From positions 1-64,000 of the IMG/VR virus record IMGVR_UViG_3300032282_004151: a DNA stretch of 64,000 bases; one strand, 5' to 3'. The position numbers and the translations under genes were made by a program. Source of the stretch: a virus. The notes under the pieces are model-generated. The model did not search any database and was not told the DNA's origin. It was given only the letters and a program-made list of their open reading frames with translations. Numbering within the stretch: the stretch's first letter is position 1; the number at the start of each line of letters is the position of its first letter. Of this stretch, positions 6,794-40,391 are shown piece by piece.

Positions 6794-6821
6794 TTGACAA
6801 TAGAGAAATATATGCTATTGT
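6794..6821 (+). promoter_or_regulatory. leaderless-type sigma70 promoter
   Basis: TTGACA, 16 bp, TATTGT; ATG 6829 follows 7 nt after the -10 box. Confidence 0.75.
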
Positions 6822-6828
6822 ATTGAAA

Positions 6829-7878
6829 ATGAGCGACAAATTAACCATAACAGTAGAAGTTGATCAGACTTTGCTGAATGCTCTTGAGCCATTCGACTAT
6901 AAGTTTGATGGCACAAGTACATTTGATCTTCCAAACTTTGATGCGCCCAAGCGAGATGGATCTTGGGCAATTGGATTGATTGTTGGTCCTTCTGGAACGG
7001 GCAAGAGCCAACTGCTCAAGAAGCATTATGGCATCACGCCAGACCCGACTTGGGATGGCAAGAAGGGAATCGCCAGCCAAGTGCCGTATCAAAAGTTAGG
7101 TGCCGTGGGTCTTAATAGTGTACCGTCTTGGTGCCGCCCATATCATGTATTGAGTAATGGAGAACAATTTCGAGCAAGAATGGCAGCAATGCTCGATACC
7201 AATACATCATTTGATGAGTTCACCTCTGTGGTTGATCGCACAATTGCCAAGAGTTGTTCTCATGCTCTACAGCGTCAAATCCGTAACGATAAACTGACTG
7301 GTGTTGTATTTGCAACCTGTCACTATGACATCACAGAATGGCTTCAGCCAGATTGGGTGTTTGATACTCTTACATCGTCTTTGACGGTGGGGAGGTCGCT
7401 TTGGCGACGCCCCGATGTTCATCTTTCCATCGAACGATGTGACAAAGGATGGTGGTCAGTTTTTAAGAAGCATCATTATCTAAGTGATGACCTTAACAAG
7501 TCCTCTCGCTGTTATCTTGCAAAGTGGAATGGCAATCCAGTTGGCTTTGTGTCTGTGTTGCCTATGCCAAGTGGTACTCTGAAGAATGCTTGGCGTGAGC
7601 ATCGTGTAGTTGTATTCCCAGACTATCAAGGCGTAGGCATTGGAGTGCGTTTGAGTGACGCAATTGCTCAAATGTATGTTGATGAAGGCAAGCGTTACTA
7701 TAGCAAAACTGCACATCCACGCATGGGTGAATATAGAAACAGATCAAAACTGTGGAAGCCTACCGTTAAGAATATGAAAACTCGGCAGGACTATAAGGCA
7801 GGACATGATAGAAAATATAGTAGCATGGCACACGCTGACAGACTTTGCTACAGCCACGAATATATCAATAAATCTTGA
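6829..7878 (+). CDS. ABC-type ATPase fused to GNAT acetyltransferase domain
   Basis: 349 residues. The N-terminal half is an ABC-type ATPase: Walker A GPSGTGKSQ (residues about 54-62), a signature-like LSNGEQFRARMA, a Walker B with switch SFDEFTSVVDR, and an H-loop VFATCHYDI. The C-terminal part, from about residue 200, is GNAT-like, with the acetyl-CoA loop VVVFPDYQGVGIGVRLSD. The order matches the known bacterial/phage group 'ABC ATPase fused to predicted acetyltransferase'. No membrane part, so not a transporter. Substrate unknown; RNA or protein acetylation is conceivable. ATG at 6829 is chosen from the promoter position rather than the in-frame ATG at 6790. Confidence 0.85.
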   Translation: MSDKLTITVEVDQTLLNALEPFDYKFDGTSTFDLPNFDAPKRDGSWAIGLIVGPSGTGKSQLLKKHYGITPDPTWDGKKGIASQVPYQKLGAVGLNSVPSWCRPYHVLSNGEQFRARMAAMLDTNTSFDEFTSVVDRTIAKSCSHALQRQIRNDKLTGVVFATCHYDITEWLQPDWVFDTLTSSLTVGRSLWRRPDVHLSIERCDKGWWSVFKKHHYLSDDLNKSSRCYLAKWNGNPVGFVSVLPMPSGTLKNAWREHRVVVFPDYQGVGIGVRLSDAIAQMYVDEGKRYYSKTAHPRMGEYRNRSKLWKPTVKNMKTRQDYKAGHDRKYSSMAHADRLCYSHEYINKS

Positions 7879-7910
7879 CAGTTGCGCCAAACTATGGAAG
7901 CATATCATCT

Positions 7911-8117
7911 ATGAATAAAGATATTCCAACGTCTCCATTCTCATCGGAAGATGATGAGACAGAACCAAATCAACTTATTAGCACAGGAATGTCGCTAAAG
8001 GATTATTATGCAGGCCAAGCATTGAATGGTTTTCTATCAAACGGCGCATCTATTGATAATGCCGTGCATTGGAGCTGGCTTACCGCAGAAAAGATGATGA
8101 ACAAACGACAATATTAA
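7911..8117 (+). CDS. conserved small phage protein, 68 aa
   Basis: The core GMSLKDYYAGQALNGFL...A..WSWLTAEKMM resembles a short phage/prophage family (SLRDYFA...AL) of unknown function. ATG 7911 gives a natural start; the ORF extends upstream to 7875 inside the previous gene. Confidence 0.6.
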   Translation: MNKDIPTSPFSSEDDETEPNQLISTGMSLKDYYAGQALNGFLSNGASIDNAVHWSWLTAEKMMNKRQY

Positions 8118-8130
8118 ATATAATAACTTT

Positions 8131-8283
8131 ATGAACAAGTATAAAATGATAGCTCATGTAACAATATTCAGCATAGCCCTTATGTCGGTCATATTTGGCA
8201 CCGTAACATCCAATACATGGCAGGTTATTGCAGGCTTTTGGATGATGATGTATGTGGTAGAAAAGACAGAGCGAACCCTCTGA
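8131..8283 (+). CDS. small membrane protein, 50 aa
   Basis: Two hydrophobic stretches (AHVTIFSIALMSVIFGTV and WQVIAGFWMMMYVV) in 50 residues, with a charged end (EKTERTL). Stop at 8281-8283, two bases before the ATG of the next membrane protein; the two may work together. No family recognised. Confidence 0.5.
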   Translation: MNKYKMIAHVTIFSIALMSVIFGTVTSNTWQVIAGFWMMMYVVEKTERTL

Positions 8284-8285
8284 AT

Positions 8286-8489
8286 ATGATAGCACTATGC
8301 ATCGAAGTTATAATCATGCTGACAGCATTTGCTACAGCATTTTTTTCATTTTTCAAGGACTATGATGTTTTATTTTATATATCATGCTTTGTTGTATTGT
8401 TCATCGCGTTCTATCGACATCATCAAACGATGAAAATCATAGAGCGCGAACAATATAAAAACAATATATACGACGACAACAAAAAGTAA
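8286..8489 (+). CDS. small membrane protein, 67 aa
   Basis: Two transmembrane segments (IALCIEVIIMLTAFATAFF and VLFYISCFVVLFIAFY) and a polar tail ending YKNNIYDDNKK. ATG 8286 follows the previous stop by two bases. Function unknown. Confidence 0.5.
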   Translation: MIALCIEVIIMLTAFATAFFSFFKDYDVLFYISCFVVLFIAFYRHHQTMKIIEREQYKNNIYDDNKK

Positions 8490-12813: not shown

Positions 12814-12842
12814 TGGACTTTCTTTAATTCTTCAACCATAAT
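12814..12842 (+). promoter_or_regulatory. leaderless-type promoter
   Basis: TGGACT, 17 bp, CATAAT; ATG 12852 follows 9 nt later. Diverges from element B. Confidence 0.75.
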
Positions 12843-12851
12843 GTTCGAACA

Positions 12852-13109
12852 ATGAAGATCATTCCTATCTACTGCTCCTATTCCTTTGAGTGGAAAGGCA
12901 ATCATGGCAGCACCGAAGAAAGCCGCCTGATGAAGGTTGGCACCACCGATGTTCCCAAGGATTGGCACGGCATTGCCATTAAAAGCCACAATACTGGCAA
13001 AGTTCTGCTTTTCGACCCTGTGGAAGATCCCGGTGAAAATGGTTATGATGGTGAGTTTATGATTTATTCCCACAACGACAAATACTTTGTGCAAATCTGG
13101 AACTACTAA
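12852..13109 (+). CDS. hypothetical protein, 85 aa
   Basis: MKIIPIYCSYSFEWKGNHG... with a beta-rich middle (GIAIKSHNTGKVLLFDPVEDP). No domain recognised. First gene of the early + strand block; the next small gene starts seven bases after its stop. Confidence 0.6.
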   Translation: MKIIPIYCSYSFEWKGNHGSTEESRLMKVGTTDVPKDWHGIAIKSHNTGKVLLFDPVEDPGENGYDGEFMIYSHNDKYFVQIWNY

Positions 13110-13115: not shown

Positions 13116-13274
13116 ATGAAAAAGTACAAGGTTACGTTCATTGATGAAATTGATGCAGAGAATGAAGATGATGCTTATGCCATCATTCTCAATTATCTTA
13201 CCAAATGCGTTCAGTATGAAGATGTTACGGCATTCGAATTCAAGGAGATCAAGAAAAAGAAGAAGCGCGCTTGA
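13116..13274 (+). CDS. hypothetical protein, 52 aa
   Basis: MKKYKVTFIDEIDAENEDDAYAIILNYL..., ending with a basic run (KEIKKKKKRA). Small alpha/beta look (YKV-strand, DAENEDDAYAII-helix), as in many phage 'KYKVT...AENEEEA' proteins. The TGA stop is part of the -35 box TTGACA of the helicase promoter. Confidence 0.6.
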   Translation: MKKYKVTFIDEIDAENEDDAYAIILNYLTKCVQYEDVTAFEFKEIKKKKKRA

Positions 13275-13299
13275 CATTCTAATAAAAGTCTAGCACGAT
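13271..13299 (+). promoter_or_regulatory. promoter of the helicase gene
   Basis: TTGACA, 17 bp, CACGAT (weak -10); ATG 13306. TGA of the preceding gene lies in the -35 box. Confidence 0.55.
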
Positions 13300-13305
13300 A
13301 CACGT

Positions 13306-14697
13306 ATGCAAATTGATACCACCGGTTTGCTTGAACCGCAATTCAAGCACGTGCAAACGCTCGTCGATAGCTTGTACCTCAACGGCCATGCCGTGGACAT
13401 GAGTGAGACTGGCACTGGCAAGACATATGCAGCTGCTGCGGTCATTCGCGAGATGAACCGTCCGTTTGTTATCATCTGCCCCAAGAGTGTCATTCATCAG
13501 TGGGAGAAGGTTCTGAATGCTTTCAAGCTGAAGGCGGTCACTGTGATCAACTATGAACTGATTGGTCGCGGCAATACCAAGTATATGAAGTGGAAGAAGC
13601 TTCCCGATCCTGTGCAGCCTTATCAGGAGAATGCTACTCGTGAACTTCCGCAGTTCAAGTTTGACCCCAACACTCTTGTGGTCGTTGACGAGGGTCACAA
13701 GTGCAAAGGCACTGACACCAGCAACAGTTGGATGCTTGTTGCCCTTAAGCTTCAAGGCTACAAGGTGCTGGTCTCGTCCGCCACCGTTGCGACTTCTCCG
13801 CTTGAGATGAAGGCGTTTGGCTTCATGACGAACCTTCATGCCTTGTACAACTTCCGCGACTTTTGCCGAGTGCACGGCGCGGAACTGCTTGCGCGTTATG
13901 GTGCCATGACTTTCAACTTGAGCAACCCTCAAGCCAAGGAGTCTATGCTGCGACTCAATGAGTATCTGTTCGAAACTACCAAGTGCGCAAGCCGCATGAA
14001 GGTGGAGGATTTTGGCAAGCAGTTTCCCGAGAGCCACATTGTGGCGGAGGCTTATGACCTTGGCAGCAACGAGAGCAAGATCCAAGCCGTCTATGACGAC
14101 ATGGAGACTGAACTGGCCAAGCTTGAGGAGAAGGCGGAGAACTACAGTGAGCACATCTTTGCCGTCATGATGGAGGCTCGTCGCAAGGCGGAGCTTTGCA
14201 AGGTTCCCTTGTTCGTTGACATGGTCGAAGATCTGTTTGACGAGGGCAAGAGCGTTGTGCTGTTCCTCAACTTCACTGACAGCGTTGAGGCTGTTGTGAA
14301 GCGATTGGACAAGATGGCCAAGTTCAAGGACCAGATTGGCTACATTGTGGGCGGTCAGGCTGACAAGCAGCGCATTGCAGATATCGAAGCATTCCAAGCT
14401 GACAAGAAGCGAGTGATGGTCGTCAATATTGCGGCGGGCGGCACTGGCGTCAGCCTTCACGATTTGAACGGCAACTTTCCTCGCGCCAGCATCGTCAGCC
14501 CCAATTGGAGTGCCTTCAATATGCGCCAAGCCTTGGGCCGTGTTTGGCGTCTTGAGGGCAAGACGAAGAGCTACCAGCACATCGTCTACGCTGCCAAGTG
14601 CATCGAGGAGAATATCTGTCACCGCGTGCAGCACAAGCTGGCATGCCTTGACACGCTCAACGACGGTGACCTTGCCGAGAGTTTGACCCTCGTCTAA
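13306..14697 (+). CDS. SNF2/DEAH-type helicase (superfamily 2)
   Basis: 463 residues, ATP-driven nucleic-acid translocase or helicase. Motif I is ETGTGKT (residues about 34-40), motif Ia ICPKSVIHQW, motif II VVDEGHK (DEGH, about 127-133), motif III SSATVATSP (about 153-161). The second RecA lobe has VVLFLNFTDSVEAV (IV), INIAAGGTGVSLHD-like (V) and QALGRVWRLEG (VI, arginine finger). The short form without insertions is common in phages, where such enzymes act in replication or recombination. GC-rich codon use like the rest of the early block. Followed by a strong terminator. Confidence 0.88.
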   Translation: MQIDTTGLLEPQFKHVQTLVDSLYLNGHAVDMSETGTGKTYAAAAVIREMNRPFVIICPKSVIHQWEKVLNAFKLKAVTVINYELIGRGNTKYMKWKKLPDPVQPYQENATRELPQFKFDPNTLVVVDEGHKCKGTDTSNSWMLVALKLQGYKVLVSSATVATSPLEMKAFGFMTNLHALYNFRDFCRVHGAELLARYGAMTFNLSNPQAKESMLRLNEYLFETTKCASRMKVEDFGKQFPESHIVAEAYDLGSNESKIQAVYDDMETELAKLEEKAENYSEHIFAVMMEARRKAELCKVPLFVDMVEDLFDEGKSVVLFLNFTDSVEAVVKRLDKMAKFKDQIGYIVGGQADKQRIADIEAFQADKKRVMVVNIAAGGTGVSLHDLNGNFPRASIVSPNWSAFNMRQALGRVWRLEGKTKSYQHIVYAAKCIEENICHRVQHKLACLDTLNDGDLAESLTLV

Positions 14698-14753: not shown

Positions 14754-14781
14754 TCGACTTTCTTTAATCTGCTGTCATGCT
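14754..14781 (+). promoter_or_regulatory. leaderless-type promoter
   Basis: TCGACT, 16 bp, CATGCT; ATG 14789 follows 7 nt later. Confidence 0.7.
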
Positions 14782-14788
14782 TCTGGGT

Positions 14789-15007
14789 ATGACGCTTCAA
14801 GAAATCAAGGACGCCATCGACGACGGCAAGACGGTCTATTGGTCCAATGAGCGCTACGTGGTCATCAAAGACCCGCTCCGCGACGGCACGTTCCAATACC
14901 TCATCGGCTGCGACCACGGTTCGCCTCGTGCGAACTACATCGGGCTGGTTTGGGCGGATGGCGTGACGGTCAATGGTCGCCCCGAGCAGTTCTTCGTCGG
15001 CAAGTGA
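14789..15007 (+). CDS. small conserved phage protein, 72 aa
   Basis: MTLQEIKDAIDDGKTVYWSN... then VVIKD...YLIGCDHG, ending VTVNGRPEQFFVGK. The MTLxEIKxAIDxGKTVYW start is shared by many small phage proteins of unknown role. ATG 14789 fits both the family start and the promoter; an in-frame ATG at 14777 overlaps the -10 box. Confidence 0.68.
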   Translation: MTLQEIKDAIDDGKTVYWSNERYVVIKDPLRDGTFQYLIGCDHGSPRANYIGLVWADGVTVNGRPEQFFVGK

Positions 15008-15015: not shown

Positions 15016-15044
15016 TCGACTTTCTTTAATTTATCCACCATACT
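15016..15044 (+). promoter_or_regulatory. leaderless-type promoter
   Basis: TCGACT, 17 bp, CATACT; ATG 15054 follows 9 nt later. Confidence 0.78.
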
Positions 15045-15053
15045 GATTGCACG

Positions 15054-15230
15054 ATGAAAACCTATCGCATCTACACTCCTTGGAACAGCATTGTGATTGA
15101 GGCCAAGAACGAGAAGCAGGCCAAGATTGACGCAGTTAAGCAACTGCTGTATGAGATTGAAAGTGACGCCGGAGCCAGTTTGGACGTTGAAGAAATCGAG
15201 AAAGACAGTTTGACCGACTCTTTGGTCTAG
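15054..15230 (+). CDS. small hypothetical protein, 58 aa
   Basis: MKTYRIYTPWNSIVIEAKNEKQAKIDAVKQ..., a strand-helix pattern like the 'KYRVT..A.N..EA..A' phage mini-proteins, with an acidic end. No function known. The next gene starts nine bases after its stop and has no convincing promoter, so the two are probably co-transcribed. Confidence 0.62.
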   Translation: MKTYRIYTPWNSIVIEAKNEKQAKIDAVKQLLYEIESDAGASLDVEEIEKDSLTDSLV

Positions 15231-15632: not shown

Positions 15633-15660
15633 TTGACTTTCTTTAATCCATCATCATACT
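15633..15660 (+). promoter_or_regulatory. leaderless-type promoter
   Basis: TTGACT, 16 bp, CATACT; ATG 15671 follows 10 nt later. Confidence 0.8.
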
Positions 15661-15670
15661 TTCATTCATT

Positions 15671-15838
15671 ATGGATCACATCGACTTCATCATCGGCGTT
15701 GAAAACGGCACTCTGAGCAACGAGGAGTTTCATGACAATGTGCAGGCGTTCGTTGACTCTGGTGTGTGGCGGAACCTTCAGGGTTCTTGGCAGAGGGCGG
15801 TGCAGATTTGGGTTGAGGCTGGCTACGCCACTCTTTGA
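15671..15838 (+). CDS. small conserved phage protein, 55 aa
   Basis: MDHIDFIIGVENGTLSNEEF...FVDSGVWRNLQGSWQRAV...EAGYATL. The pattern (E.G.L..EEF...Q.LIDSG..W.LQGS..R....LI..G) is a very common short phage/plasmid family of unknown function. Complete length. Confidence 0.72.
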   Translation: MDHIDFIIGVENGTLSNEEFHDNVQAFVDSGVWRNLQGSWQRAVQIWVEAGYATL

Positions 15839-15847: not shown

Positions 15848-15875
15848 TTGACTTTTTTTATTCCTCTGCCATACT
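15848..15875 (+). promoter_or_regulatory. leaderless-type promoter
   Basis: TTGACT, 16 bp, CATACT; ATG 15885 follows 9 nt later. Confidence 0.8.
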
Positions 15876-15884
15876 GATACCACG

Positions 15885-16133
15885 ATGAAAAACCAGCACG
15901 CTATCACCCTCAAGAAGTCTGCTGACAAGTACATTGCTTGGCACAGCAACGCCTTCAAGGACGACCCCGAAATGACTGAAGGAGGCAAGAAGGACTACGA
16001 CGATCTCATCAGCATCGCTGGTATGATCGAGAATGGTGAGGACAAGAAGAAGATTGGAATGACTATGTGGAAGCTTGACACGGCTGTTCGCGACATTATT
16101 CCTGACAATGTCTATTACGCCTTCACTCGCTAA
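15885..16133 (+). CDS. hypothetical protein, 82 aa
   Basis: MKNQHAITLKKSADKYIAW...; helical, with DYDDLISIAGMIENGEDKKKIGMTMWKLDTAVRD in the middle and end. The aromatic/Asp pattern resembles short phage helical-bundle proteins; no function known. Confidence 0.62.
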   Translation: MKNQHAITLKKSADKYIAWHSNAFKDDPEMTEGGKKDYDDLISIAGMIENGEDKKKIGMTMWKLDTAVRDIIPDNVYYAFTR

Positions 16134-16137: not shown

Positions 16138-16165
16138 TTGACTTTTTATTAACCATCATCATTCT
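16138..16165 (+). promoter_or_regulatory. leaderless-type promoter
   Basis: TTGACT, 16 bp, CATTCT; ATG 16173 follows 7 nt later. Confidence 0.78.
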
Positions 16166-16172
16166 ATCTTAC

Positions 16173-16550
16173 ATGGGCGTTTACATCTACGGAATCAAGT
16201 CTCCCAAGCACGTTGCCACGGTTGAATTGGACAACGGCAACGTCTGCACGGTGGCGAAGTATGCTTACGCTTACAAGCCGCTGTATTCCTTTTTCAACAA
16301 GGAGCCGAAGTGGCAGACGCTCGCCAAGGCTCGCCTTACTCGAATGGACAATATCTGGAAGAAGTTCATCTCCGATGGTGGCAAGTATCCGCAGGGCGGC
16401 GTCATGGTTCATGGCGAAGGCAACGACAAGATCGAGATCGGTTCCAACGTGATGACTTGGCCACAGATTTCTTCTGTGCCGATTGCCATCGAAGATTGCA
16501 CTTGCAACAAGGCATCGTTCATCGGCAAGATTGTGCGAGTGATTTCTTGA
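16173..16550 (+). CDS. hypothetical protein, 125 aa
   Basis: MGVYIYGIKSPKHVATVELDNGNVC..., with a basic middle (KARLTRMDNIWKKFI) and a beta-rich end (IAIEDCTCNKASFIGKIVRVIS). No recognised domain. Its TGA stop is inside the next promoter's TTGACT. Confidence 0.62.
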   Translation: MGVYIYGIKSPKHVATVELDNGNVCTVAKYAYAYKPLYSFFNKEPKWQTLAKARLTRMDNIWKKFISDGGKYPQGGVMVHGEGNDKIEIGSNVMTWPQISSVPIAIEDCTCNKASFIGKIVRVIS

Positions 16551-16574
16551 CTTTCATAAAAAAACTGCTACTCT
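16547..16574 (+). promoter_or_regulatory. leaderless-type promoter
   Basis: TTGACT, 16 bp, TACTCT; ATG 16585 follows 10 nt later. -35 box contains the stop of the preceding gene. Confidence 0.75.
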
Positions 16575-16584
16575 TCTAAACACT

Positions 16585-17097
16585 ATGGGATACCACACTG
16601 ATTTCCGAGGCAAGTTCGATCTGAACAAGCCCCTTTCTCCTGCTCACAAGGCTTATCTCCTGAAGTTCAGCGAGACGCGCCGCATGAAGCGCAAGCAGAC
16701 CGTTGCGGCGAAGAAGCTAGACCCTATCCGAGTTGCGGCGGGACTTCCTATTGGCAAGCAAGGTGCTTATTTCGTCAATGGCGCTGGCTTTTGCGGTCAG
16801 GACAGCGATGATAGCGTCGTCAACAGCAACACCCCTCCCGAGGGTCAGCCGAGCCTATGGTGCCAATGGGTACCGAACGAGGACGGCACTGCCATTGAAT
16901 GGGACGGTGGCGAGAAGTTCTATGAGTATGTGGATTGGATTGAGTATCTCATCAAGAACTTCCTAGAGCCGTGGGGTTATGTTCTCAATGGCGAAGTGGA
17001 ATGGAATGGAGAAGATCGTGATGACATTGGTATGATTGCCATTGACAGCAACGAAGTGAAGGTCAAGAATGGTCGAGTTGTTTACGAGGAGGTTTAA
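16585..17097 (+). CDS. conserved phage protein (MGYxTDFxGxFxLNKPL family)
   Basis: 170 residues. MGYHTDFRGKFDLNKPLSP, then AYLLKFSETRRMKRK, and later PSLWCQWVPNEDGTAIEWDGGEKFYEYVDWIEYLI. This is a widespread phage and bacterial hypothetical family with a full-length pattern (GY.T.F.G.F.ldkPL...FS.TRRMKR...PSLWCQW). The function has not been worked out to my knowledge. The downstream gene follows after three bases without a promoter of its own. Confidence 0.78.
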   Translation: MGYHTDFRGKFDLNKPLSPAHKAYLLKFSETRRMKRKQTVAAKKLDPIRVAAGLPIGKQGAYFVNGAGFCGQDSDDSVVNSNTPPEGQPSLWCQWVPNEDGTAIEWDGGEKFYEYVDWIEYLIKNFLEPWGYVLNGEVEWNGEDRDDIGMIAIDSNEVKVKNGRVVYEEV

Positions 17098-17373: not shown

Positions 17374-17398
17374 CATTTTAAAAAAAGTAGTCCAAGAT
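17370..17398 (+). promoter_or_regulatory. leaderless-type promoter
   Basis: TTGACA, 17 bp, CAAGAT; ATG 17408 follows 9 nt later. -35 box contains the preceding stop. Confidence 0.7.
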
Positions 17399-17407
17399 AC
17401 TAGAACG

Positions 17408-29497: not shown

Positions 29498-29503
29498 TTC
29501 AGC

Positions 29504-29898: not shown

Positions 29899-29926
29899 TT
29901 GCTTTTCTTAAAATAACTGCCATAGT
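29899..29926 (+). promoter_or_regulatory. leaderless-type promoter
   Basis: TTGCTT, 16 bp, CATAGT; ATG 29934 follows 7 nt later. Confidence 0.74.
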
Positions 29927-29933
29927 ACTAAGC

Positions 29934-30432: not shown

Positions 30433-30456
30433 CTTTCTTAAAAAAACATTCAACAT
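30429..30456 (+). promoter_or_regulatory. leaderless-type promoter
   Basis: TTGACT, 16 bp, CAACAT; ATG 30464 follows 7 nt later. -35 box contains the preceding stop. Confidence 0.72.
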
Positions 30457-30463
30457 CATCAAC

Positions 30464-30766
30464 ATGATCATCTCACAAGCTACCGTTTTGTCTGAAAACA
30501 TTCTGTCGCCAAGTCGTGCCATCAATGGCAAGGCGATTGTGAATTATTTCCTCAACAAGGACGAACCTTCCAATTTCAACAAATATGTCAAGGTCAGCAA
30601 CGTCTCTGTCAATTATGCCAATGGTGGCGTTGACCTTTTTGCCGCAAATGAGCTTTCTGTTGAGACGCTTCGCACCATTGCCAACGCTCTGAATGACCTT
30701 GCGAACAAGGCTGATGCTGCTGCGGTAAAGTTGCGTGAGATTAACAAAAGCATTGACACGAACTAA
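30464..30766 (+). CDS. hypothetical protein, 100 aa
   Basis: MIISQATVLSENILSPSRAI..., mixed beta then a long helix (VETLRTIANALNDLANKADAAAVKLREINK in parts). No recognised domain. ATG 30464 by promoter position; the frame opens upstream at 30272. Confidence 0.6.
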   Translation: MIISQATVLSENILSPSRAINGKAIVNYFLNKDEPSNFNKYVKVSNVSVNYANGGVDLFAANELSVETLRTIANALNDLANKADAAAVKLREINKSIDTN

Positions 30767-30789
30767 AAAAACCCTCAATCTACTACCCT

Positions 30790-31374
30790 ATGCCTAACTG
30801 GTGCTCAAACAACGTCGTCGTTTCTGGTAAGAACCTCAGTGCCTTCAAGGAGTGGCTTGGCGATGGCAAGGCTCTGCTGACCAAGATCGCCCCTACGCCC
30901 CAGCCTCTTGTCGAAACGACTGCTGGTTGGAGTGGCGACCCCGAGGCTCAGAAGCTGAACGATGAACGCGAGAAGGCCAACCTCAAGGAGTTTGGCTACA
31001 AGAACTGGTATGATTGGAACATCGGTGCGTGGGGCACCAAGTGGGACGTTGATGCCGAGATCGACGAAAGCAGCAGCACTGAGAATGAGATCATTTTCAG
31101 CTTTGAGAGTGCGTGGAGCCCTCCGCAGGCTGCGTTTGCTCGTCTTGCCGAGAAGTTCCCTGACCTTAGCATCCGTCATGCCTACATGGAAGAGGGTATG
31201 TGCTTTGTCGGCGTGGACACGTATGAGGACGGGGTTGTTGCTGACGAGGTCTACAGCGAAGAGCCCGATACGGACGAGTGGAAGGAGCTTGCCCGCGACG
31301 AGTTTGGTTGGGAGCCGTGGGAGGATGATGAGGACGCGGAGGATATGGAAGAGGAAAAGCCCGCGAAGAATTGA
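30790..31374 (+). CDS. Api92-like / DUF1281-type phage protein, 194 aa
   Basis: MPNWCSNNVVVSGK..F start, then NWYDWNIGAWGTKWDVDAEI (residues about 74-93) and FESAWSPPQAAFARLAEKFPDL. This is the hallmark layout of the Api92-like ferredoxin-fold family found in many phages and plasmids (MPNWC.N...v.G; W...nWGTKWd; sPP...f..ls..fP.l). Function unknown. The C-terminus carries a long acidic tail (EDDEDAEDMEEE). Confidence 0.85.
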   Translation: MPNWCSNNVVVSGKNLSAFKEWLGDGKALLTKIAPTPQPLVETTAGWSGDPEAQKLNDEREKANLKEFGYKNWYDWNIGAWGTKWDVDAEIDESSSTENEIIFSFESAWSPPQAAFARLAEKFPDLSIRHAYMEEGMCFVGVDTYEDGVVADEVYSEEPDTDEWKELARDEFGWEPWEDDEDAEDMEEEKPAKN

Positions 31375-31716: not shown

Positions 31717-32281
31717 TTTATTTATTTTTACAACTCTTGCGCCATTTTTATTTGGTGGCGTAGATGTACGTATTGAAGGAGCATTTGGTGTTAGGCTTGG
31801 TGATACTTACCAAGTGAATGACAAGTTAATTCAGCGAACAAGAGAATTTGAGTTTACTCCAGTTAGCTCATCTGACATTTTTCAGACATATCATGTTAAA
31901 TTAACTCCAAAAAGCCGCAAGATTTATTCCATCTCTGCTGAAGGATATGTGCAGAATGAAATTGTTTATGAAAAGATGGACAGTCTTAGGTATGAGTTGG
32001 CAAAGAAATACCTAGTGCCCAATCTTAGGTTGGACACCATCACTTCTATCATGAACAGAACCAATAGGTTGTATGTTGAAGAAGCAATTTTAACTGACGG
32101 TGGCTCAATTACATTGTCTTACCCACATTCGCCCACTCGCGGCATTTTAAATGAACCTCGCGCTCATCTAACAGCATATTCTGAAGGCAATAAGTGCGTG
32201 ATGGAAGTTGTTGATGTTGCGCTGTTTAAGCTAAGTATCCAAGAAGACGAAGAATTAAGAAAATTGCAGAATGACTCTTGA
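31694..32281 (+). CDS. exported hypothetical protein, 195 aa
   Basis: A signal peptide (MKMKKLFNLFIFTTLAPFLF, cleavage plausible near residue 21) precedes a beta-rich domain with FGVRLGDTY, VYEKMDSLRYELAKKY and LYVEEAILTDGGSITLSYP. The layout resembles small periplasmic proteins, but no family is recognised. ATG 31700 is an alternative. Its TGA stop lies in the next TTGACT. Confidence 0.6.
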   Translation: MKMKKLFNLFIFTTLAPFLFGGVDVRIEGAFGVRLGDTYQVNDKLIQRTREFEFTPVSSSDIFQTYHVKLTPKSRKIYSISAEGYVQNEIVYEKMDSLRYELAKKYLVPNLRLDTITSIMNRTNRLYVEEAILTDGGSITLSYPHSPTRGILNEPRAHLTAYSEGNKCVMEVVDVALFKLSIQEDEELRKLQNDS

Positions 32282-32305
32282 CTTTTAAAATAAGTCGTGT
32301 AGGAT
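32278..32305 (+). promoter_or_regulatory. leaderless-type promoter
   Basis: TTGACT, 16 bp, TAGGAT; ATG 32315 follows 9 nt later. -35 box contains the preceding stop. Confidence 0.77.
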
Positions 32306-32314
32306 GTACGCACG

Positions 32315-32521
32315 ATGAAAGTCCCACTCCAAGACCTACTCACCATCATTCACGCCGACAAAAAGAGCTATATCGCCCAAGTGGGTGCTCGTGAGTATGA
32401 GTGCCTTGAGGCATTGGTGAAGGATGGCACGATCAACACCATCAAAAGTCTGATCGAGCATGGTGTGGCCATTGGCGACGATGTTTACCCCATCGCCAAG
32501 AAATACAGCAATCTGGCTTGA
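32315..32521 (+). CDS. hypothetical protein, 68 aa
   Basis: MKVPLQDLLTIIHADKKSYI..., helical with a VAIGDDVYPIAKKY end. No recognised domain. Stop TGA lies in the next TTGATT. Confidence 0.6.
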   Translation: MKVPLQDLLTIIHADKKSYIAQVGAREYECLEALVKDGTINTIKSLIEHGVAIGDDVYPIAKKYSNLA

Positions 32522-32545
32522 TTTTTAAAATAAATAGGTCATACT
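32518..32545 (+). promoter_or_regulatory. leaderless-type promoter
   Basis: TTGATT, 16 bp, CATACT; ATG 32556 follows 10 nt later. -35 box contains the preceding stop. Confidence 0.77.
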
Positions 32546-32555
32546 TGTTCTCATC

Positions 32556-32837
32556 ATGAACATTGCCCAAACCATCCTTTCTCAGATCAAGGCTCTGGAT
32601 CCGATGGCTCTGTTTGCTTGGGGTGCCAAGGATCTGATCAACATGGAAAATGGTCTGAAGTTCAAGACCACTGGCATTACTCCTTACAAAGGTTATGTTT
32701 ACATCAAGCTGAATGGCAAGGACTTGTATGACATTCAGTTCTTTAAGGTTCGCAATCTTGAAGTCAAGACTGACAAGGTTGTGGAAGATGTTTATGCTGA
32801 AGATCTTGTGCGAGTCATTGATGGAGTTGTTGGTTGA
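32556..32837 (+). CDS. conserved phage hypothetical protein, 93 aa
   Basis: Helix ILSQIKALDPMALFAWGAKD, then GLKFKTTGITPYKGYVYIKLNGKDLYDIQFFKVRNLEV. The helix-then-sheet pattern (L....LMM.GA......L.Fki.G......v.I.Ld..D.Y.V.f) is a frequent phage protein. Function unknown. Confidence 0.7.
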   Translation: MNIAQTILSQIKALDPMALFAWGAKDLINMENGLKFKTTGITPYKGYVYIKLNGKDLYDIQFFKVRNLEVKTDKVVEDVYAEDLVRVIDGVVG

Positions 32838-32840: not shown

Positions 32841-32869
32841 TTGACAAATTAAAAAAAGTCGTTCAAGAT
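32841..32869 (+). promoter_or_regulatory. leaderless-type promoter
   Basis: TTGACA, 17 bp, CAAGAT; ATG 32879 follows 9 nt later. Confidence 0.74.
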
Positions 32870-32878
32870 ATCTGCATC

Positions 32879-33013
32879 ATGAAGATCAACTCCACCATCA
32901 AGACCCGCAGCGTGTTCACCTCTGGCGTCAACCTCGGCGGTGTGGCGCACAAGACCAAGAAGGGCAAAGGCAGCTATCAACGCAAAAACAAGTATGGCAA
33001 TCGTTGGGAGTGA
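32879..33013 (+). CDS. very basic small protein, 44 aa
   Basis: MKINSTIKTRSVFTSGVNLG followed by a Lys/Arg/Gly-rich half (HKTKKGKGSYQRKNKYGNRW). Complete gene with its own promoter; probably nucleic-acid binding by charge only. Confidence 0.58.
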   Translation: MKINSTIKTRSVFTSGVNLGGVAHKTKKGKGSYQRKNKYGNRWE

Positions 33014-33021: not shown

Positions 33022-33050
33022 TTGACAAATTAAAAAAAGTCCTTCATCGT
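33022..33050 (+). promoter_or_regulatory. leaderless-type promoter
   Basis: TTGACA, 17 bp, CATCGT; ATG 33058 follows 7 nt later. Nearly identical to the promoters at 32841 and 33360 in the AAATTAAAAAAAGT part. Confidence 0.72.
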
Positions 33051-33057
33051 CTAACCC

Positions 33058-33285
33058 ATGAAGCCAATTCGTTATAACCCTGATGGGACTGAAATCCCCC
33101 TGACTTCCGGTCAACGTCGGCGTAACGAACGTGCAAGAGTTTGCAACCGAAAAAGAGAATCGGGATGGAGCGGGGATAGACGACCATGTGATTTGGGTTG
33201 TGGTGGAGAAATGTCTTGGTGCTCTTGTTGTGAAACATACACAAGCACTTGTTGCGTAGATTACGGAACTTGTATGTGTTCGTAA
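33058..33285 (+). CDS. Cys-rich zinc-ribbon-like protein, 75 aa
   Basis: A basic N-terminal half (TSGQRRRNERARVCNRKRES) and a C-terminal half with nine Cys in 33 residues (CDLGCGGEMSWCSCCETYTS, then CCVDYGTCMCS). One or two metal sites are likely. No family recognised. It directly precedes the truncated tRNA-like gene. Confidence 0.55.
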   Translation: MKPIRYNPDGTEIPLTSGQRRRNERARVCNRKRESGWSGDRRPCDLGCGGEMSWCSCCETYTSTCCVDYGTCMCS

Positions 33286-33359: not shown

Positions 33360-33387
33360 TTGACAAATTAAAAAAAGTAGCCATAGT
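33360..33387 (+). promoter_or_regulatory. leaderless-type promoter
   Basis: TTGACA, 16 bp, CATAGT; ATG 33395 follows 7 nt later. Confidence 0.78.
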
Positions 33388-33394
33388 TAGCACC

Positions 33395-33748
33395 ATGAAC
33401 TCCATTATCTCACCGTCTCTCGAAAACAAGCCTGTTGTGGTCAATGGACCCAAGGTGGGCGACATTCTGGTCAGCATCAGTGGCTATGAAGCCAGCATTG
33501 CTAGTTGGGCCAAGGTTGTGGGTGTGACTGGCAAGAGCGTCAAGATTGTGCGCTTGCCCGCCGACAACAAGTATACTGGCGGCGGTGGCATGGAATGGAT
33601 CAGCACGCCCGCCACTGATCGCATCAAAGGTGATACTGAGACCAAGCGTTTTACTGCTGATGGCGACGGCTATAGGGTCAAGAACAACAGCTACAGCAAC
33701 TATTATGTTTGGAGTGGCAAGCCAATTCAGTGCTACAACCATCACTAA
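33395..33748 (+). CDS. conserved phage hypothetical protein, 117 aa
   Basis: GPKVGDILVSISGYEASIASWAKVVGVTGKSVKIVRLP (read in parts), then a DGYRVKNNSYSNYYVWSGKPIQCYN end. The GDIf..swGydqt.v.fyqVv..tgksv.ir.i...............Y.V.i.sY..a..Wdg...y pattern is a widespread family in phages and plasmids; function unknown. Terminator follows. Confidence 0.75.
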   Translation: MNSIISPSLENKPVVVNGPKVGDILVSISGYEASIASWAKVVGVTGKSVKIVRLPADNKYTGGGGMEWISTPATDRIKGDTETKRFTADGDGYRVKNNSYSNYYVWSGKPIQCYNHH

Positions 33749-33820: not shown

Positions 33821-33848
33821 TTGACATTTAAAAAAAATAGGTCATAGT
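33821..33848 (+). promoter_or_regulatory. leaderless-type promoter
   Basis: TTGACA, 16 bp, CATAGT; ATG 33856 follows 7 nt later. Confidence 0.8.
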
Positions 33849-33855
33849 ACTTTAC

Positions 33856-34146
33856 ATGAACCTCACCCAACCCGAAACCAACCTCGTCGCCAAGCTGACC
33901 ACCGAGTATGGTCTTTACGTCAATGACAGCCTCACGACCGCCGTGAACCGCCTGTCTGGCGCTCGCGTTCAGACAACCCCTCTTGCGGCTGCTCTGATCC
34001 GTTTCGCCCAGATCGCCTACGGCAACTATGAGTTGTTTGGCAAGATGAGCGTCAAGAACAAGCCTGTGAGCATCAGCATGTATGACCGCGTGCGGTATCT
34101 TGTGCTCAAGCTGGACCGCAATGCTTATGCCGAAGTGCTTGACTAA
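33856..34146 (+). CDS. hypothetical protein, 96 aa
   Basis: MNLTQPETNLVAKLTTEYGL..., mostly helical, with YDRVRYLVLKLDRNAYAEVLD at the end. No recognised family. Closed by a terminator seven bases after the stop. Confidence 0.6.
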   Translation: MNLTQPETNLVAKLTTEYGLYVNDSLTTAVNRLSGARVQTTPLAAALIRFAQIAYGNYELFGKMSVKNKPVSISMYDRVRYLVLKLDRNAYAEVLD

Positions 34147-34188: not shown

Positions 34189-34217
34189 TTGCACTTTTAA
34201 AATAAATAGATCATAGT
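34189..34217 (+). promoter_or_regulatory. leaderless-type promoter
   Basis: TTGCAC, 17 bp, CATAGT; ATG 34224 follows 6 nt later. Confidence 0.72.
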
Positions 34218-34223
34218 ATTCCC

Positions 34224-34412
34224 ATGATGAACACCACCGCCAACTACGCCAGCTATCGCCTCCTCTCCAATGGTCGCTGCATTGGGGAGATCAGCTTCCC
34301 CAACAACACCGTCAACGCCAACTTTGGTGGGGTCTGCTTCTATGACCCTGTTACGGGCACCTTCCTTGGCACCACCAACGTCAACGGCTTTGTCCTTGAG
34401 CGGGTCGAGTGA
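34224..34412 (+). CDS. hypothetical protein, 62 aa
   Basis: MMNTTANYASYRLLSNGRCI..., beta-rich (GEISFPNNTVNANFGGVCFYD, GTTNVNGFVLERVE). No recognised family. Last gene of the early block; ATG 34227 could also serve. Confidence 0.6.
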   Translation: MMNTTANYASYRLLSNGRCIGEISFPNNTVNANFGGVCFYDPVTGTFLGTTNVNGFVLERVE

Positions 34413-35328: not shown

Positions 35329-35336
35329 TATTTATA
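35329..35336 (+). promoter_or_regulatory. putative late promoter box TATTTATA
   Basis: Six bases before ATG 35343. The reverse form TATAAATA also occurs at 35304-35311. Confidence 0.5.
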
Positions 35337-35342
35337 TGCTAT

Positions 35343-36530
35343 ATGGCAACATACAGTGCTTCATTGTACAACTGGTGGGACGCGACGACGGGCTCGGCGT
35401 TTCAAGGTGGCATACCATCTGACGGTGCGCAGATTACACAATGGTTTGATGCTGGTGTTGGTGGCATTACATTGAACAATGTTGCCGGTGGTAATAAAGT
35501 ATCATATACTGCGAGTGTGCAGAACGGTCAGGGCGCTGTGTTCTTTGCTAATAGCCAAGATAAATTTCTTGATGCTGCATATACTGCATTTAACAACAAG
35601 ACAGAAGCTACAGTTATATTTGCTGGTCGTACACTAACAGCAAGTTTATACCAGCAAGTATTCAGTACAGATAGCAATCAGCTATTTTTAAGAGTATCTG
35701 GCTCACATTGGTGCGTTGGTGCGGCTGGTGCATTTTTCACATCATCCATTGTACCTGATCCAAGTATATCACACGTTTTTACAGTTGTATACAGCGGATC
35801 TGGTGCAACTACTGCGGATAAAATAAAATTTAGAAGAGACGGCGCAGATGTTCCTCTGCATCTTGTATCTGGTAGCATAAGTTCAAGTTTCAATAATACC
35901 GGCACCAGATTTTTGGTTGGTGACAATTCGTCACTCAACTTGGACTTTTATGGATATATTCATGAACTATATGTTTACACAAGTTCATTGACTTCGGCGC
36001 AACTGTCTCAAACTGAAAATTATATCGGTTCAAAATATGCGCTGAATTTGGCTACGCCGACACCAACTCCGACTCCCACAACAACACCTACGCCGACACC
36101 AACTCCGACTCCCACAACAACACCTACGCCGACACCAACTCCAACTCCAACATCAACCAACGCGCCAACACCCACGCCATCATCAACTCCAGAGCCTTCT
36201 CCTACACCAACACCATTGCCATCGGTATGTGCGATTGTATTGTTGGACCGCAAATATACAACAATTCCACTTGGTCAAGAATACGCATATGCAACTCCAG
36301 TAAATGACTCAACGTTTGGATTGTATTATCAATTGTCTTGTACACAGAAAAAGACCAGCTTTGACTATTATGCAATATATCCACCTCTTACGGTGTTTAG
36401 CAGTTATTATAGTTATGTAACATATCTTGGCTTTACGGCGTCATATGATGCAAACACAAAGATTTACTTGAACAAAACTGGCGGATTAGACTGCAGTGAA
36501 AATTTGTTACAAGCAATCTACAGACCTTGA
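35343..36530 (+). CDS. LamG-like, Thr-Pro-rich virion fibre protein
   Basis: 395 residues. Residues 1-235 form a concanavalin/LamG-like domain ([53 protein letters not shown], the last typical of LamG C-terminal strands). Residues about 237-292 are an almost pure Thr-Pro repeat with the 18-base unit for TPTPTP repeated. A C-terminal domain follows ([10 protein letters not shown]..., [20 protein letters not shown]). The plan is that of a host-binding tail or head fibre. First late gene; probably O-glycosylated if the GT60-type enzyme acts on Thr-Pro tracts. Confidence 0.72.
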
Positions 36531-36757: not shown

Positions 36758-36765
36758 TATTTATA
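36758..36765 (+). promoter_or_regulatory. putative late promoter box TATTTATA
   Basis: Ten bases before ATG 36776. Confidence 0.5.
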
Positions 36766-36775
36766 TATTAAATAT

Positions 36776-38455
36776 ATGAGCAGAGTACCGTTTGATATCC
36801 AGTTTTTATTAGAAAGCATATTGTCTGAAGACCCAGACAGAGTGTATCTTACTAAAAACTCGGTGGCGAAGTTGCGCAAAGATGGCTCGGATGTGTTCGA
36901 GGATACACTTGATTGGGACACAACCCCTGACGCTATTCCTTTTTATATAGATCAGGAAGAGAACGTGGTTATTTTTTGCAAAATGAATACTCACGGTAGA
37001 ATGGAGAGGGCATTAAGCCACGCCGCTAATGTATCCATAGATAACATAATGTATGAAAGAGATTGTGTTGAAAAAACATACATGAATTGTCATGGCATTT
37101 ATGTAAAATCAGGCATTGATGTTGCAGTTTATTTTTATGGCCTTCCTAAAAGCAATATGGAAGGCATCAAGGAATATTTGAAGGAAAACCGTACACGATT
37201 AAAGCGTTTGAAAATACGCGGTACTGGTGATGAAAGCGAGGCAATCGAGTTGTGCGGAAGAATGTGGTATCAGCACAGCGCAATAAGTTTTTGGAATGAA
37301 AAAGCAAATGTAAGTGGACTATTTAATCTTGTCTTTAGTTTCATGAAGCAATGCGGAATGAACCCAAGCAAATGTGCATATGAGTTTATTGACAGCAAGC
37401 AGATGTTTTCTTACAAGGAACTTAGAGGCAACGTCGATGACAAAGAAAAATTAAGTCCTGAAGAAATCAAAGCATTACAATCAAAGCAGCATTTGGATCC
37501 AAAGGCAAAAGCCAAATTGTTTGGACCAGAATATAAACAAAAGCACAAGGAAAAAGCTGCGAAAAGATTTGATTATCCTGCAAAGGCCGACGCATCAATG
37601 CCTGCACTTGAAGGTAGAATAAAACTGAAGGATCTTATCAAGGAAAGTCCAGATGTAATAATATCGGTTGATGGAAAAACTAATTTGGCGCATTATACTT
37701 CTGGGGATGCAATTGCATTTTTTGCATATCCAAACTTTTCAGCATTAAATCCCGGCGGAGTTCATACCGACATAATGCAGGAGTTTCAAACCGTATATGA
37801 TAATCTTGATCAGATAAACAGCGACCCCTCCGAAAAAAAATATTACGCGAATAGAATATATAAACATGGTGTAATTATTTCAAACGTTGATGATATGTTT
37901 GATGCATTATCTTCTGGTCCATTGCATGATTATATTAAAAGTGAAACTTGGAGAAGTGACGATGAGGATCCGGGCGCGTTTAGGGTAAAGTCCAGTGGAT
38001 TGGGCGGAAGATTGTGGAAAAATAGAAAGCTAATTTCATTTTGGAACAGCAAGGAAGATGTATTAAAAGATTGGAGTTATGTGGAGAAAATGTTCAGAGA
38101 TAATCAATTTGAAATCGGTAATCTCGAAGATTATAATGTAGATTGGATTGAAAGAGATGTTCGTGGTGGCGGAGAACTAACTCCCGCAAGTTCAATATCA
38201 AGCTATCGCAGTGAAAAGAAAGATGATCCCAGCCAACTGAGTTTCCTAGACAAACTTGCTGATGAAAAGCCAATAAGCAAAGAAGAAATCAAGAAGATAC
38301 AGCAAAGATTGCACACTATGTCTGCCCAAGAAAAGAAAAGTGCATTGATGAAACTTGGAGCAACTAACACAAAGGCAGCAGACATTGCAGATAAACTTGG
38401 TATGACCGTGGCAGAATTCAATCACATAATGAATGTGAACGAAGGAGAAGAATAA
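36776..38455 (+). CDS. large hypothetical protein, 559 aa
   Basis: MSRVPFDIQFLLESILSEDP..., with two segments of similar type (residues about 170-180 WYQHSAISFWNEK and 425-440 KNRKLISFWNSKED), which suggests an internal duplication. Charged linkers (KQKHKEKAAKRFD) lie between. The C-terminal 60 residues (SKEEIKKIQQRLHTMSAQEK..., DIADKLGMTVAEFNHIM) look like a helical, helix-turn-helix-type domain. No family recognised. Late position suggests a structural or morphogenetic role. Confidence 0.6.
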   Translation: MSRVPFDIQFLLESILSEDPDRVYLTKNSVAKLRKDGSDVFEDTLDWDTTPDAIPFYIDQEENVVIFCKMNTHGRMERALSHAANVSIDNIMYERDCVEKTYMNCHGIYVKSGIDVAVYFYGLPKSNMEGIKEYLKENRTRLKRLKIRGTGDESEAIELCGRMWYQHSAISFWNEKANVSGLFNLVFSFMKQCGMNPSKCAYEFIDSKQMFSYKELRGNVDDKEKLSPEEIKALQSKQHLDPKAKAKLFGPEYKQKHKEKAAKRFDYPAKADASMPALEGRIKLKDLIKESPDVIISVDGKTNLAHYTSGDAIAFFAYPNFSALNPGGVHTDIMQEFQTVYDNLDQINSDPSEKKYYANRIYKHGVIISNVDDMFDALSSGPLHDYIKSETWRSDDEDPGAFRVKSSGLGGRLWKNRKLISFWNSKEDVLKDWSYVEKMFRDNQFEIGNLEDYNVDWIERDVRGGGELTPASSISSYRSEKKDDPSQLSFLDKLADEKPISKEEIKKIQQRLHTMSAQEKKSALMKLGATNTKAADIADKLGMTVAEFNHIMNVNEGEE

Positions 38456-38992: not shown

Positions 38993-38993
38993 A

Positions 38994-39251
38994 ATGAACG
39001 ACGTACTTATTACCAAAACAATACAAGCTTTGTCCGCGTCATTCTCTGACACTAGACCAAGCGTGAATAGCACAAATTTTTATATACAATCAAATGGATC
39101 AAAAATTCCAATTTGGGGATATCGGGTTTATTCAACATACCCAACTAACGGTTTATTCGTTGTACTTACCAGAACAAAAAGCGGAGACAGTTATATCAAT
39201 GCCAATTTAACGGACGATGTATATTATTCGTCAACACCTTTCACAATTTGA
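38994..39251 (+). CDS. hypothetical virion protein, 85 aa
   Basis: MNDVLITKTIQALSASFSDT..., beta-rich, with GSKIPIWGYRVYSTYP and FVVLTRTKSG. Placed between two Thr-Pro-rich genes, one base after the first; probably structural. An in-frame ATG at 38958 overlaps the gene before. Confidence 0.5.
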   Translation: MNDVLITKTIQALSASFSDTRPSVNSTNFYIQSNGSKIPIWGYRVYSTYPTNGLFVVLTRTKSGDSYINANLTDDVYYSSTPFTI

Positions 39252-39256
39252 TCGTT

Positions 39257-40138
39257 ATGAATAAAGGAATACCAACTCACGGAAATCCAGAATATAGTGT
39301 ATTTGGCATCATAGGTACGACGATTGGTACCGATGAAGGCAAATCGTATTACAAAGAAACTGATGATACAAAGAACATCGGGTGGGTGCAATCATATCCA
39401 ATAACCACTGTAACACCAACTATATCACTTACTCCAACCGAAAATGGAACTCCTACTGTAACACCAACTCCGACGGTTACACCAACGATTACGCCGACTA
39501 TCACTCCTTCAAATCAAGAAACGCAAACGCCTACACCAACAGTCACCGAAACTCCCACGGTTACTCCATCTTTAACTCCAGATTTGACGCCAACAACCAC
39601 CCCAACTCCGACTTCTACACAGGGATTGAGCCCAACACCAACACCAACAGAAACTGTTACTCCAACAACAACCCCGACCCCAACGGTGACACCAAGTACT
39701 CAAATATATTCGTTAACAGTATCTTCCGATGGAAATGGCAGTACCTCGCCGTTTGGAACAAATAGTTATCTTAGTGGAACTTCTGTTATACTATTAGCCA
39801 GTCCAAATGTTGGTTATTTTTTTAATACTTGGGTATTTACAGGAACTCCAGATCCAAGTGATGGCCCTGAGTATGCCAATAGTACAAATATTATAATGAA
39901 TGGAGATAGAACCGCTACTGCATATTTCACCGCTATACCGCAGTCGTATCAAATATACATTACGCGAGATACAATAGGAAATTATGGATTTACGTATAGA
40001 GATAAATTTGGAAACATTCAAAGTACAGGTAGTATAGGCGGAGTTCCAAATTCAACAGAATTCAATGTGGCATGTGGCTATGAGATAATCAGTTACAACA
40101 CTGGTTCGTTTGCAGGGTTGTCAGCAGTTACTTGCTAA
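39257..40138 (+). CDS. Thr-Pro-rich virion protein with InlB-type repeat
   Basis: 293 residues. N-terminal IPTHGNPEYSVFGIIGTTIG... NIGWVQ is a paralogue of the protein at 38459. Residues about 50-150 are Thr-Pro repeats. A beta-grasp repeat of the InlB B/Listeria-Bacteroides type follows (SLTVSSDGNGSTSPFG, SGTSVILLASPNVGYFFNTW, NGDRTATAYFTA). The end is a small beta domain with two Cys. Presumed fibre with a binding tip. ATG 39257 preferred over 39248, which overlaps the gene before. Confidence 0.66.
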   Translation: MNKGIPTHGNPEYSVFGIIGTTIGTDEGKSYYKETDDTKNIGWVQSYPITTVTPTISLTPTENGTPTVTPTPTVTPTITPTITPSNQETQTPTPTVTETPTVTPSLTPDLTPTTTPTPTSTQGLSPTPTPTETVTPTTTPTPTVTPSTQIYSLTVSSDGNGSTSPFGTNSYLSGTSVILLASPNVGYFFNTWVFTGTPDPSDGPEYANSTNIIMNGDRTATAYFTAIPQSYQIYITRDTIGNYGFTYRDKFGNIQSTGSIGGVPNSTEFNVACGYEIISYNTGSFAGLSAVTC

Positions 40139-40158
40139 TAAGATATTTCACAAAGACC

Positions 40159-40186
40159 TTGACTTTGTATATAATGTGTGCATTAT
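40159..40186 (+). promoter_or_regulatory. leaderless-type promoter inside the late region
   Basis: TTGACT, 16 bp, CATTAT; ATG 40194 follows 7 nt later. The only early-type promoter found among the late genes besides those near 53.6 and 55.5 kb. Confidence 0.72.
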
Positions 40187-40193
40187 TGTACGC

Positions 40194-40391
40194 ATGATGA
40201 ATAACACATCTAATACAAACACAGTCAAACGCGGTCGCGGTCGTCCTCGTAAGGATACCGTTGCCAATATTACCAATAAGAATAAGCCTATTGATAATTC
40301 TATTCCTGCTCTATTAGAACCCAACATTCATGATATCCACGACGAGCTTGTGCGTATGGATAGCTTTGCGTATTCCCGTTATAACGAATAA
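40194..40391 (+). CDS. AT-hook protein, 65 aa
   Basis: MMNNTSNTNTV KRGRGRPRKD carries a classical AT-hook (RGRPRK), a minor-groove DNA binder; the rest is polar. It could help transcription or DNA packing. The late sigma factor also has such a hook (RPRGRPKGSK). ATG 40197 is an alternative. Confidence 0.65.
   Translation: MMNNTSNTNTVKRGRGRPRKDTVANITNKNKPIDNSIPALLEPNIHDIHDELVRMDSFAYSRYNE

Follow-up and report, generated by a model that had tools for sequence, protein, structure and literature searches.

We analyzed 64,000 nucleotides (nt) of viral DNA (hereafter the window), i.e., bases 1-64,000 of the 72,316-base IMG/VR record IMGVR_UViG_3300032282_004151, which is a fragment of a T4-like phage (G000). 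In this window, 41 gene starts were found to be preceded by both boxes of a sigma70-like promoter, with 6-10 nt separating the -10 box from the ATG, and a motif scan of related genomes, as had been suggested in an initial annotation of this DNA, detected the same architecture in six related phages (G001, G002, G003, G016, G017, and G018). Judging from the genomic sequences, it is highly probable that these T4-like phages have a gene expression system adapted to hosts that initiate translation without Shine-Dalgarno (SD) sequences, with promoters placed on the ATGs and mRNAs that would be leaderless or near-leaderless.

Promoter motif, spacing and conservation

About 40 such promoters had been counted by hand in the initial annotation, and alignment of the candidate starts yielded 41 usable ones. 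The elements proposed there, namely a TTGACT/TTGACA box, a 16-17 bp spacer (from the -35 to the -10 box) and a CATACT-like -10 box, were recovered by this alignment as TTGACT/A and [C/T]AnnnT, with spacers of 16, 17, and 18 bp in 26, 14, and one promoters, respectively. Base counts at the -35 box (n = 41) are T41, T35, G39, A36, C34, and T28/A13. At the -10 box (such as CATACT or TAGACT), they are C30/T9 and A40, followed by a variable middle and T41, so that near invariance is limited to the A in the second and the T in the sixth position. The gap, defined as the number of nt from the end of the -10 box to the ATG, is short as originally described, but it ranges from 6 to 10 rather than from 5 to 10, and it has two modes, 7 and 9, rather than the single mode of 9 (3, 12, 4, 17, and 5 promoters with gaps of 6, 7, 8, 9, and 10, respectively).

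Scores above 10 were obtained for 39 of 43 candidate starts, compared with 15 of 1,550 other ATGs. The majority of the TTGAC-type promoters (38/41) are located within 12.8-34.3 kb, where the coding strand contains 72 TTGAC sequences; for 28 of them, the first ATG that follows is 34-40 nt away, versus a mean of 2.3 and a maximum of 7 in 100 shuffles. A position weight matrix was also trained on G002 and G003 only, using box-box-ATG matches as seeds and then iterating on box content alone, with the window unseen. When applied to the window, it gave 17, 7, 17, and 5 sites at gaps of 7, 8, 9, and 10 on the forward strand, compared with 3, 4, 3, and 1 on the reverse strand. The number of boxes at this spacing is thus far above that of the shuffles, and the motif trained on relatives peaks on the coding strand only. 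An exact consensus pattern with a fixed A-tract, which is too strict, had no matches among viral contigs.

One alternative is that compact gene packing squeezes promoters onto the ATGs without any translational meaning. In 13 of the 41 promoters, the TGA of the -35 box doubles as the in-frame stop of an upstream open reading frame (ORF) of at least 40 codons, as packing would predict, but the other 28 do not overlap such a stop. Moreover, T4 is at least as compact (coding fraction.935 with the same caller), yet it has no such starts and keeps TATAAATA 15-35 nt upstream. In addition, the same promoter type stands 19-20 nt before two tRNAs of the same block, and therefore the 6-10 nt rule is specific to protein genes. 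Packing is thus considered an improbable explanation. Even less probable is that the starts, which are computational calls of small genes, have been mis-assigned, the real ones being located further downstream behind an SD, with normal leaders that overlap the annotated N-termini. Each of the 38 promoter-led ATGs between 12.8 and 34.3 kb begins an ORF of 40 or more codons, compared with 28% of 433 other ATGs, and tblastn alignments to orthologues start mostly at residue 1-5. The called starts also have no SD enrichment (see below), although no separate SD scan of downstream in-frame starts was made.

The closest relative of the window is G001 (72% identity across 38 kb of alignable DNA, mostly colinear). 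A -35-like box at 33-40 nt is retained in 31 of 41 orthologous starts of G001-G003, with 4.6 expected from flanking windows, and the spacers have diverged between orthologues although the boxes are retained. The numbers of sites with gaps of 5-11 (shuffled values in brackets) were 30 (1.8) in G000, 39 (5.8) in G001, 44 (1.2) in G002, 33 (4.0) in G003, 12 (3.0) in G016, 51 (2.5) in G017, and 43 (4.0) in G018; 41 of the 44 sites in G002 are at exactly 6 or 7. Both boxes at a gap of 6-10 were observed at 12-32% of called starts in the clade (1.4-3.5 starts expected per sequence set), compared with none in T4, one in Microcystis phage Mel-JY01 and none in Flavobacterium phage immuto (0-0.7%), which were used as non-clade comparison. 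Placement of promoters on the ATG is a clade-wide trait and not an oddity of a single early region. The gap modes are 6-7 in G002, 7 in G003, 9 in G001, 7 and 9 in the window, and 6 and 8-9 in G017/G018; G016 and G017 have modes, and G018 a second peak, at 6-7. The distance from the -35 box to the ATG is phage-specific as well (35 nt in most G002/G003 orthologues and 36-39 nt in G001), as if it had drifted genome-wide.

Shine-Dalgarno use, the TATTTAT class and the probable host

SD use was assessed as the share of called starts with at least 4 nt of the SD relative to that of internal ATGs, with T4 as the positive control. No SD enrichment was detected at the called starts of the seven clade members, in which the two shares were within.05 of each other (e.g.,.116/.116 in G000,.153/.108 in G001,.091/.069 in G003, and.071/.084 in G018). 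In contrast, the shares were.649/.086 in T4 and.455/.058 in Mel-JY01. The absence of room for an SD between the -10 box and the ATG, which had been pointed out before, was confirmed and is conserved across the clade. Pieces of promoters (CATACT, TATTTA, and ATTTAT) are among the hexamers most enriched before clade starts. By eye, no SD is present before the second genes of pairs (e.g., 13116, 18547, and 21763), which therefore need coupling or SD-free initiation; an exception with an SD-like GAGGAGG is the gene at 17101. A search for a phage-encoded copy of ribosomal protein bS21 found none. Inspection by eye of the two tRNA-Met genes (17922 and 21926) revealed no GGG:CCC anticodon stem, and thus no sign of a phage-supplied initiator tRNA.

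A second promoter class, TATTTAT, is spatially separate from the putatively early TTGAC class and occupies the 35-72 kb block; it is probably a late class. It was found 3-12 nt before starts seven times in the window (0.3 expected), 17 times in G001 (0.4), 16 times in G018 (0.4), and 13 times in G016 (0.9). Its distance from the start in the window is mostly 4-11 nt, and all nine copies within 20 nt of a called start are located beyond 34.3 kb. In comparison, the T4 late TATAAATA and the TATTTAT of Mel-JY01 are enriched 15-35 nt before starts (18 vs. 0.5 and 11 vs. 1.5 expected, respectively). Therefore, phages with SD leaders keep the box at a distance, whereas in the clade it is often moved up to the ATG.

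The probable host, as suggested by gene similarity, is a member of Verrucomicrobiota (Opitutia). Among the best 80 kept matches of the G001 DnaK (L012:1465-3321) in GTDB genomes, 78 carry a Verrucomicrobiota label, with Opitutaceae/Opitutia in the lead at 74-75% identity, and a quick tree placed this protein on the Opitutia side with support of 99 and a long branch. A DUF1800/DUF1501 gene pair is also present in G001 (L009:13564-16321). Three Verrucomicrobiota genomes (two Opitutaceae and one Prosthecobacter) showed no SD enrichment, their shares at starts and internal ATGs being.105/.200,.108/.164, and.153/.189, and contained 5, 1, and 3 genes with boxes at gaps of 6-10 (0.3, 0.3, and 0.2 expected, respectively). 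Some Verrucomicrobia are SD-scarce in a published survey as well (PMC10783764). Such SD-poor hosts would explain the promoter design of the phages. A search of GTDB genomes with the major capsid protein provided no host link. Actinobacteria, as an alternative leaderless host, were also considered, and WhiB was present in none of nine records.

Predicted transcript starts and positions of individual promoters

In promoters of the E. coli type, the transcription start (+1) usually lies 7-8 nt past the -10 box, and gaps of 6-8 thus put it on or beside the A of the ATG. Leaderless or near-leaderless mRNAs, with predicted leaders of 0-4 nt, are supported on this basis. In the proposed mechanism, strong TTGACW-16/17-[CT]AnnnT promoters stand before almost all small genes or gene pairs between 6.8 and 34.2 kb and would be read by host RNA polymerase carrying the principal sigma factor. 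No match to Sigma70_r4 was found in the four phage records searched, and the TTGAC class is therefore likely to be read by the host holoenzyme. Transcription would begin at the ATG or at most ~4 nt upstream, the resulting mRNA would have no leader, and ribosomes would initiate on its 5'-terminal AUG. The second promoter, TATTTAT, probably late, may act in the same position, also near the ATG of many genes at 35-72 kb, and the downstream genes of pairs would be translated by SD-free initiation or coupling.

Several points weigh against this interpretation. The initially proposed leaderless mRNAs hold as a prediction for gaps of 6-8, but gaps of 9-10 leave a predicted 2-4 nt before the AUG under canonical start-site choice. 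In this block, no fewer than three genes are leadered (promoters at 20357, 23333, and 27622, with leaders of ~30 nt or longer). The number of terminators is not elevated (26 vs. 19.8, standard deviation 4.4), and read-through from upstream would add leadered transcript forms. In G001, TATTTAT is also found at 15-35 nt (16 vs. 0.7 expected), and this class is therefore mixed. Furthermore, the genes were called by a simple home-made caller, and the host call comes from one gene of the sister phage G001, whose matches were gathered via exact peptide words.

The gaps of 9-10, which account for 22 of the 41 promoters in the window and include the mode of G001, would also fit a model in which the promoters are of the sigma70 type but most transcripts carry leaders of 2-5 nt, and ordinary 30S binding to SD-free unstructured mRNA takes place; the absence of SD elsewhere is consistent with it, too. 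However, the modes of 6-7 in G002, G003, G016, and G017 and the second peak of G018 place the canonical +1 on the A of the ATG, and the spacing is tightly kept, though SD-free leaders of any length would serve. We regard such short leaders as possible but rather unlikely, and prefer leaderless or near-leaderless transcription from promoters placed on start codons.

The TTGAC-type promoters of the window, all on the + strand, are as follows (coordinates; promoter; gap in nt; ATG position and remarks).

6794..6831; TTGACA-16-TATTGT; gap 7; ATG 6829, GNAT-domain protein, box of the G001 orthologue at 37
7875..7913; weak promoter, TTGACA-17-AAGCAT; gap 7; ATG 7911, upstream stop in -35
12814..12854; promoter; gap 9; ATG 12852
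13271..13308; promoter; gap 6; ATG 13306, helicase, previous gene's stop in -35, kept in G001, G002, and G003
14754..14791; promoter; gap 7; ATG 14789
15016..15056; promoter; gap 9; ATG 15054
15633..15673; TTGACT-16-CATACT; gap 10; ATG 15671
15848..15887; TTGACT-16-CATACT; gap 9; ATG 15885
16138..16175; promoter; gap 7; ATG 16173
16547..16587; promoter; gap 10; ATG 16585, upstream stop in -35
17370..17410; promoter; gap 9; ATG 17408, upstream stop in -35
18123..18162; TTGACA-16-TAGACT; gap 9; ATG 18160
18880..18919; promoter; gap 9; ATG 18917, DUF2786/DUF7168
20897..20935; promoter; gap 8; ATG 20933
21097..21136; promoter; gap 9; ATG 21134
21544..21582; promoter; gap 8; ATG 21580
22189..22228; promoter; gap 9; ATG 22226, upstream stop in -35
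23659..23698; promoter; gap 9; ATG 23696, upstream stop in -35
23977..24016; TTGACT-16-CATACT; gap 9; ATG 24014, upstream stop in -35
24426..24465; promoter; gap 9; ATG 24463
24850..24891; promoter; gap 10; ATG 24889
25239..25277; TTGCCT-17-CTTACT; gap 7; ATG 25275
26089..26127; promoter; gap 8; ATG 26125, upstream stop in -35
26659..26701; weakest site (score 6.0); gap 10; ATG 26699, another possible promoter at 26650 (gap 21)
27099..27139; promoter; gap 9; ATG 27137
27372..27412; promoter; gap 9; ATG 27410
28406..28445; TTGCTT-16-CAGACT; gap 9; ATG 28443
28821..28859; promoter; gap 7; ATG 28857
29089..29129; promoter; gap 9; ATG 29127
29470..29506; promoter; gap 6; ATG 29504
29899..29936; promoter; gap 7; ATG 29934
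30429..30466; promoter; gap 7; ATG 30464
30753..30792; promoter; gap 8; ATG 30790, DUF1281_C / Api92-like
32278..32317; promoter; gap 9; ATG 32315, upstream stop in -35
32518..32558; TTGATT-16-CATACT; gap 10; ATG 32556, upstream stop in -35
32841..32881; promoter; gap 9; ATG 32879, box kept in three relatives
33022..33060; promoter; gap 7; ATG 33058
33360..33397; promoter; gap 7; ATG 33395, box kept in three relatives
33821..33858; promoter; gap 7; ATG 33856
34190..34226; TGCACT-16-CATAGT; gap 6; ATG 34224
40159..40196; promoter; gap 7; ATG 40194, box kept in two relatives
22441..22468; same promoter type, ~20 nt from tRNA-Lys (22489), internal control
23047..23074; same promoter type, ~19 nt from tRNA-Thr (23094)
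20357..20428; exception, leadered gene; gap 41; ATG 20426, TTGAC ~38 nt before the ATG of the G001 orthologue
27622..27694; exception, leadered gene; gap 42; ATG 27692

The following TATTTAT sites, also on the + strand, were recorded.

35329..35345; 7 nt before ATG 35343, probable late promoter
36758..36778; 11 nt before ATG 36776
42212..42230; 9 nt before ATG 42228
43431..43454; 14 nt before ATG 43452
53787..53801; 5 nt before ATG 53799
57503..57517; 5 nt before ATG 57515
60614..60630; 7 nt before ATG 60628

Besides promoters, several other features were observed in the window. A 57-nt tRNA-like gene (33293-33349; Rfam tRNA, 49.3 bits) lacks the anticodon arm and folds into acceptor, D, and T arms, and a tRNA at 21457-21532, probably Arg (TCT) by eye, is found by Rfam and missed by ARAGORN. 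The sequence TTTAGGTAC occurs in seven copies (0.32 expected), all on the + strand (4349, 6659, 9683, 10337, 10973, 11062, and 24442), between and inside genes and often followed by CCC. The block 46332-52984 encodes a GlcNAc-type glycosyltransferase and an HtrL/YibB-family protein; when the DNA of 46.3-51.3 kb was compared with phages, a single glycosyltransferase-type match was obtained, in three records.

Relation to known systems and significance

Individual phage genes without leaders, such as lambda cI, are known, as are the middle/late genes of Thermus phage P23-45. The clade is predicted to share translation from a 5'-terminal AUG with the lambda cI-type cases; its scale is different, comprising dozens of genes and two promoter classes. 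In bacteria, TANNNT ~12 bp before the start marks a leaderless (TA-led) gene (Zheng et al. 2011, PMC3160421), and in Deinococcus-Thermus a -10 motif adjoins ORFs, a placement tested experimentally in Deinococcus, in which most leaderless-type genes have no -35 box (PMC12340547). Like leaderless bacterial genes, those of the clade have a -10 box immediately adjacent to the start codon, lack an SD, and show near invariance of A2 and T6 only. They differ by a strong TTGAC -35 box, which is nearly always present, by the preference for C at position 1 of the -10 box, and by their setting in a T4-like phage lineage rather than a cell genome.

Resemblance to T4 and other Tevenvirinae is evident from the gp23-family major capsid protein and terminase homologues of G001, and from a T4 gp25-like protein and baseplate wedge matches encoded in the window. 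A gp23-family capsid protein is also present in G003 and is absent from the window's own record (a 72 kb fragment). T4 has many separate early promoters. Unlike the clade, it has an SD at 65% of its starts and late TATAAATA at leader distance instead of TATTTAT close to the ATG; no homologue of T4 gp55 was found by phmmer in the phage sequence searched. The closest cultured capsid relatives are Mel-JY01 and immuto (57-59%), which share the enrichment of TATTTAT upstream of starts. However, the TTGAC-box-ATG architecture was not found there, and Mel-JY01 uses SD and has TATTTAT mainly at leader distance. No description of a leaderless program in T4-like or Verrucomicrobiota phages was found in the literature, with most subscription journals outside the search. 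The earlier impression that this scale is unlike any T4-like phage was therefore sustained: leaderless genes have been described from many bacteria and, as isolated cases, from phages, and a clade-wide program in T4-like phages appears to be new. It is about as likely as not that this clade of large freshwater T4-like phages has rebuilt both main promoter classes, leaving most transcription units leaderless, in step with SD-free Verrucomicrobiota and with lineage-specific spacing.

Most studies of leaderless translation in bacteria have dealt with individual genes or with Actinobacteria and Deinococcus. With dozens of promoters on start codons, the clade offers a ready natural set of predicted 5'-AUG messages, and its comparison with the SD-using T4 and Mel-JY01 indicates that promoter position shifts with translation mode. 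Gene finders that score SD may mis-call such genomes, and caution is needed in this respect. It is predicted that Verrucomicrobiota ribosomes would initiate well on 5'-terminal AUGs, and the promoter-ATG signature may help assign phages of unidentified host to SD-free hosts.

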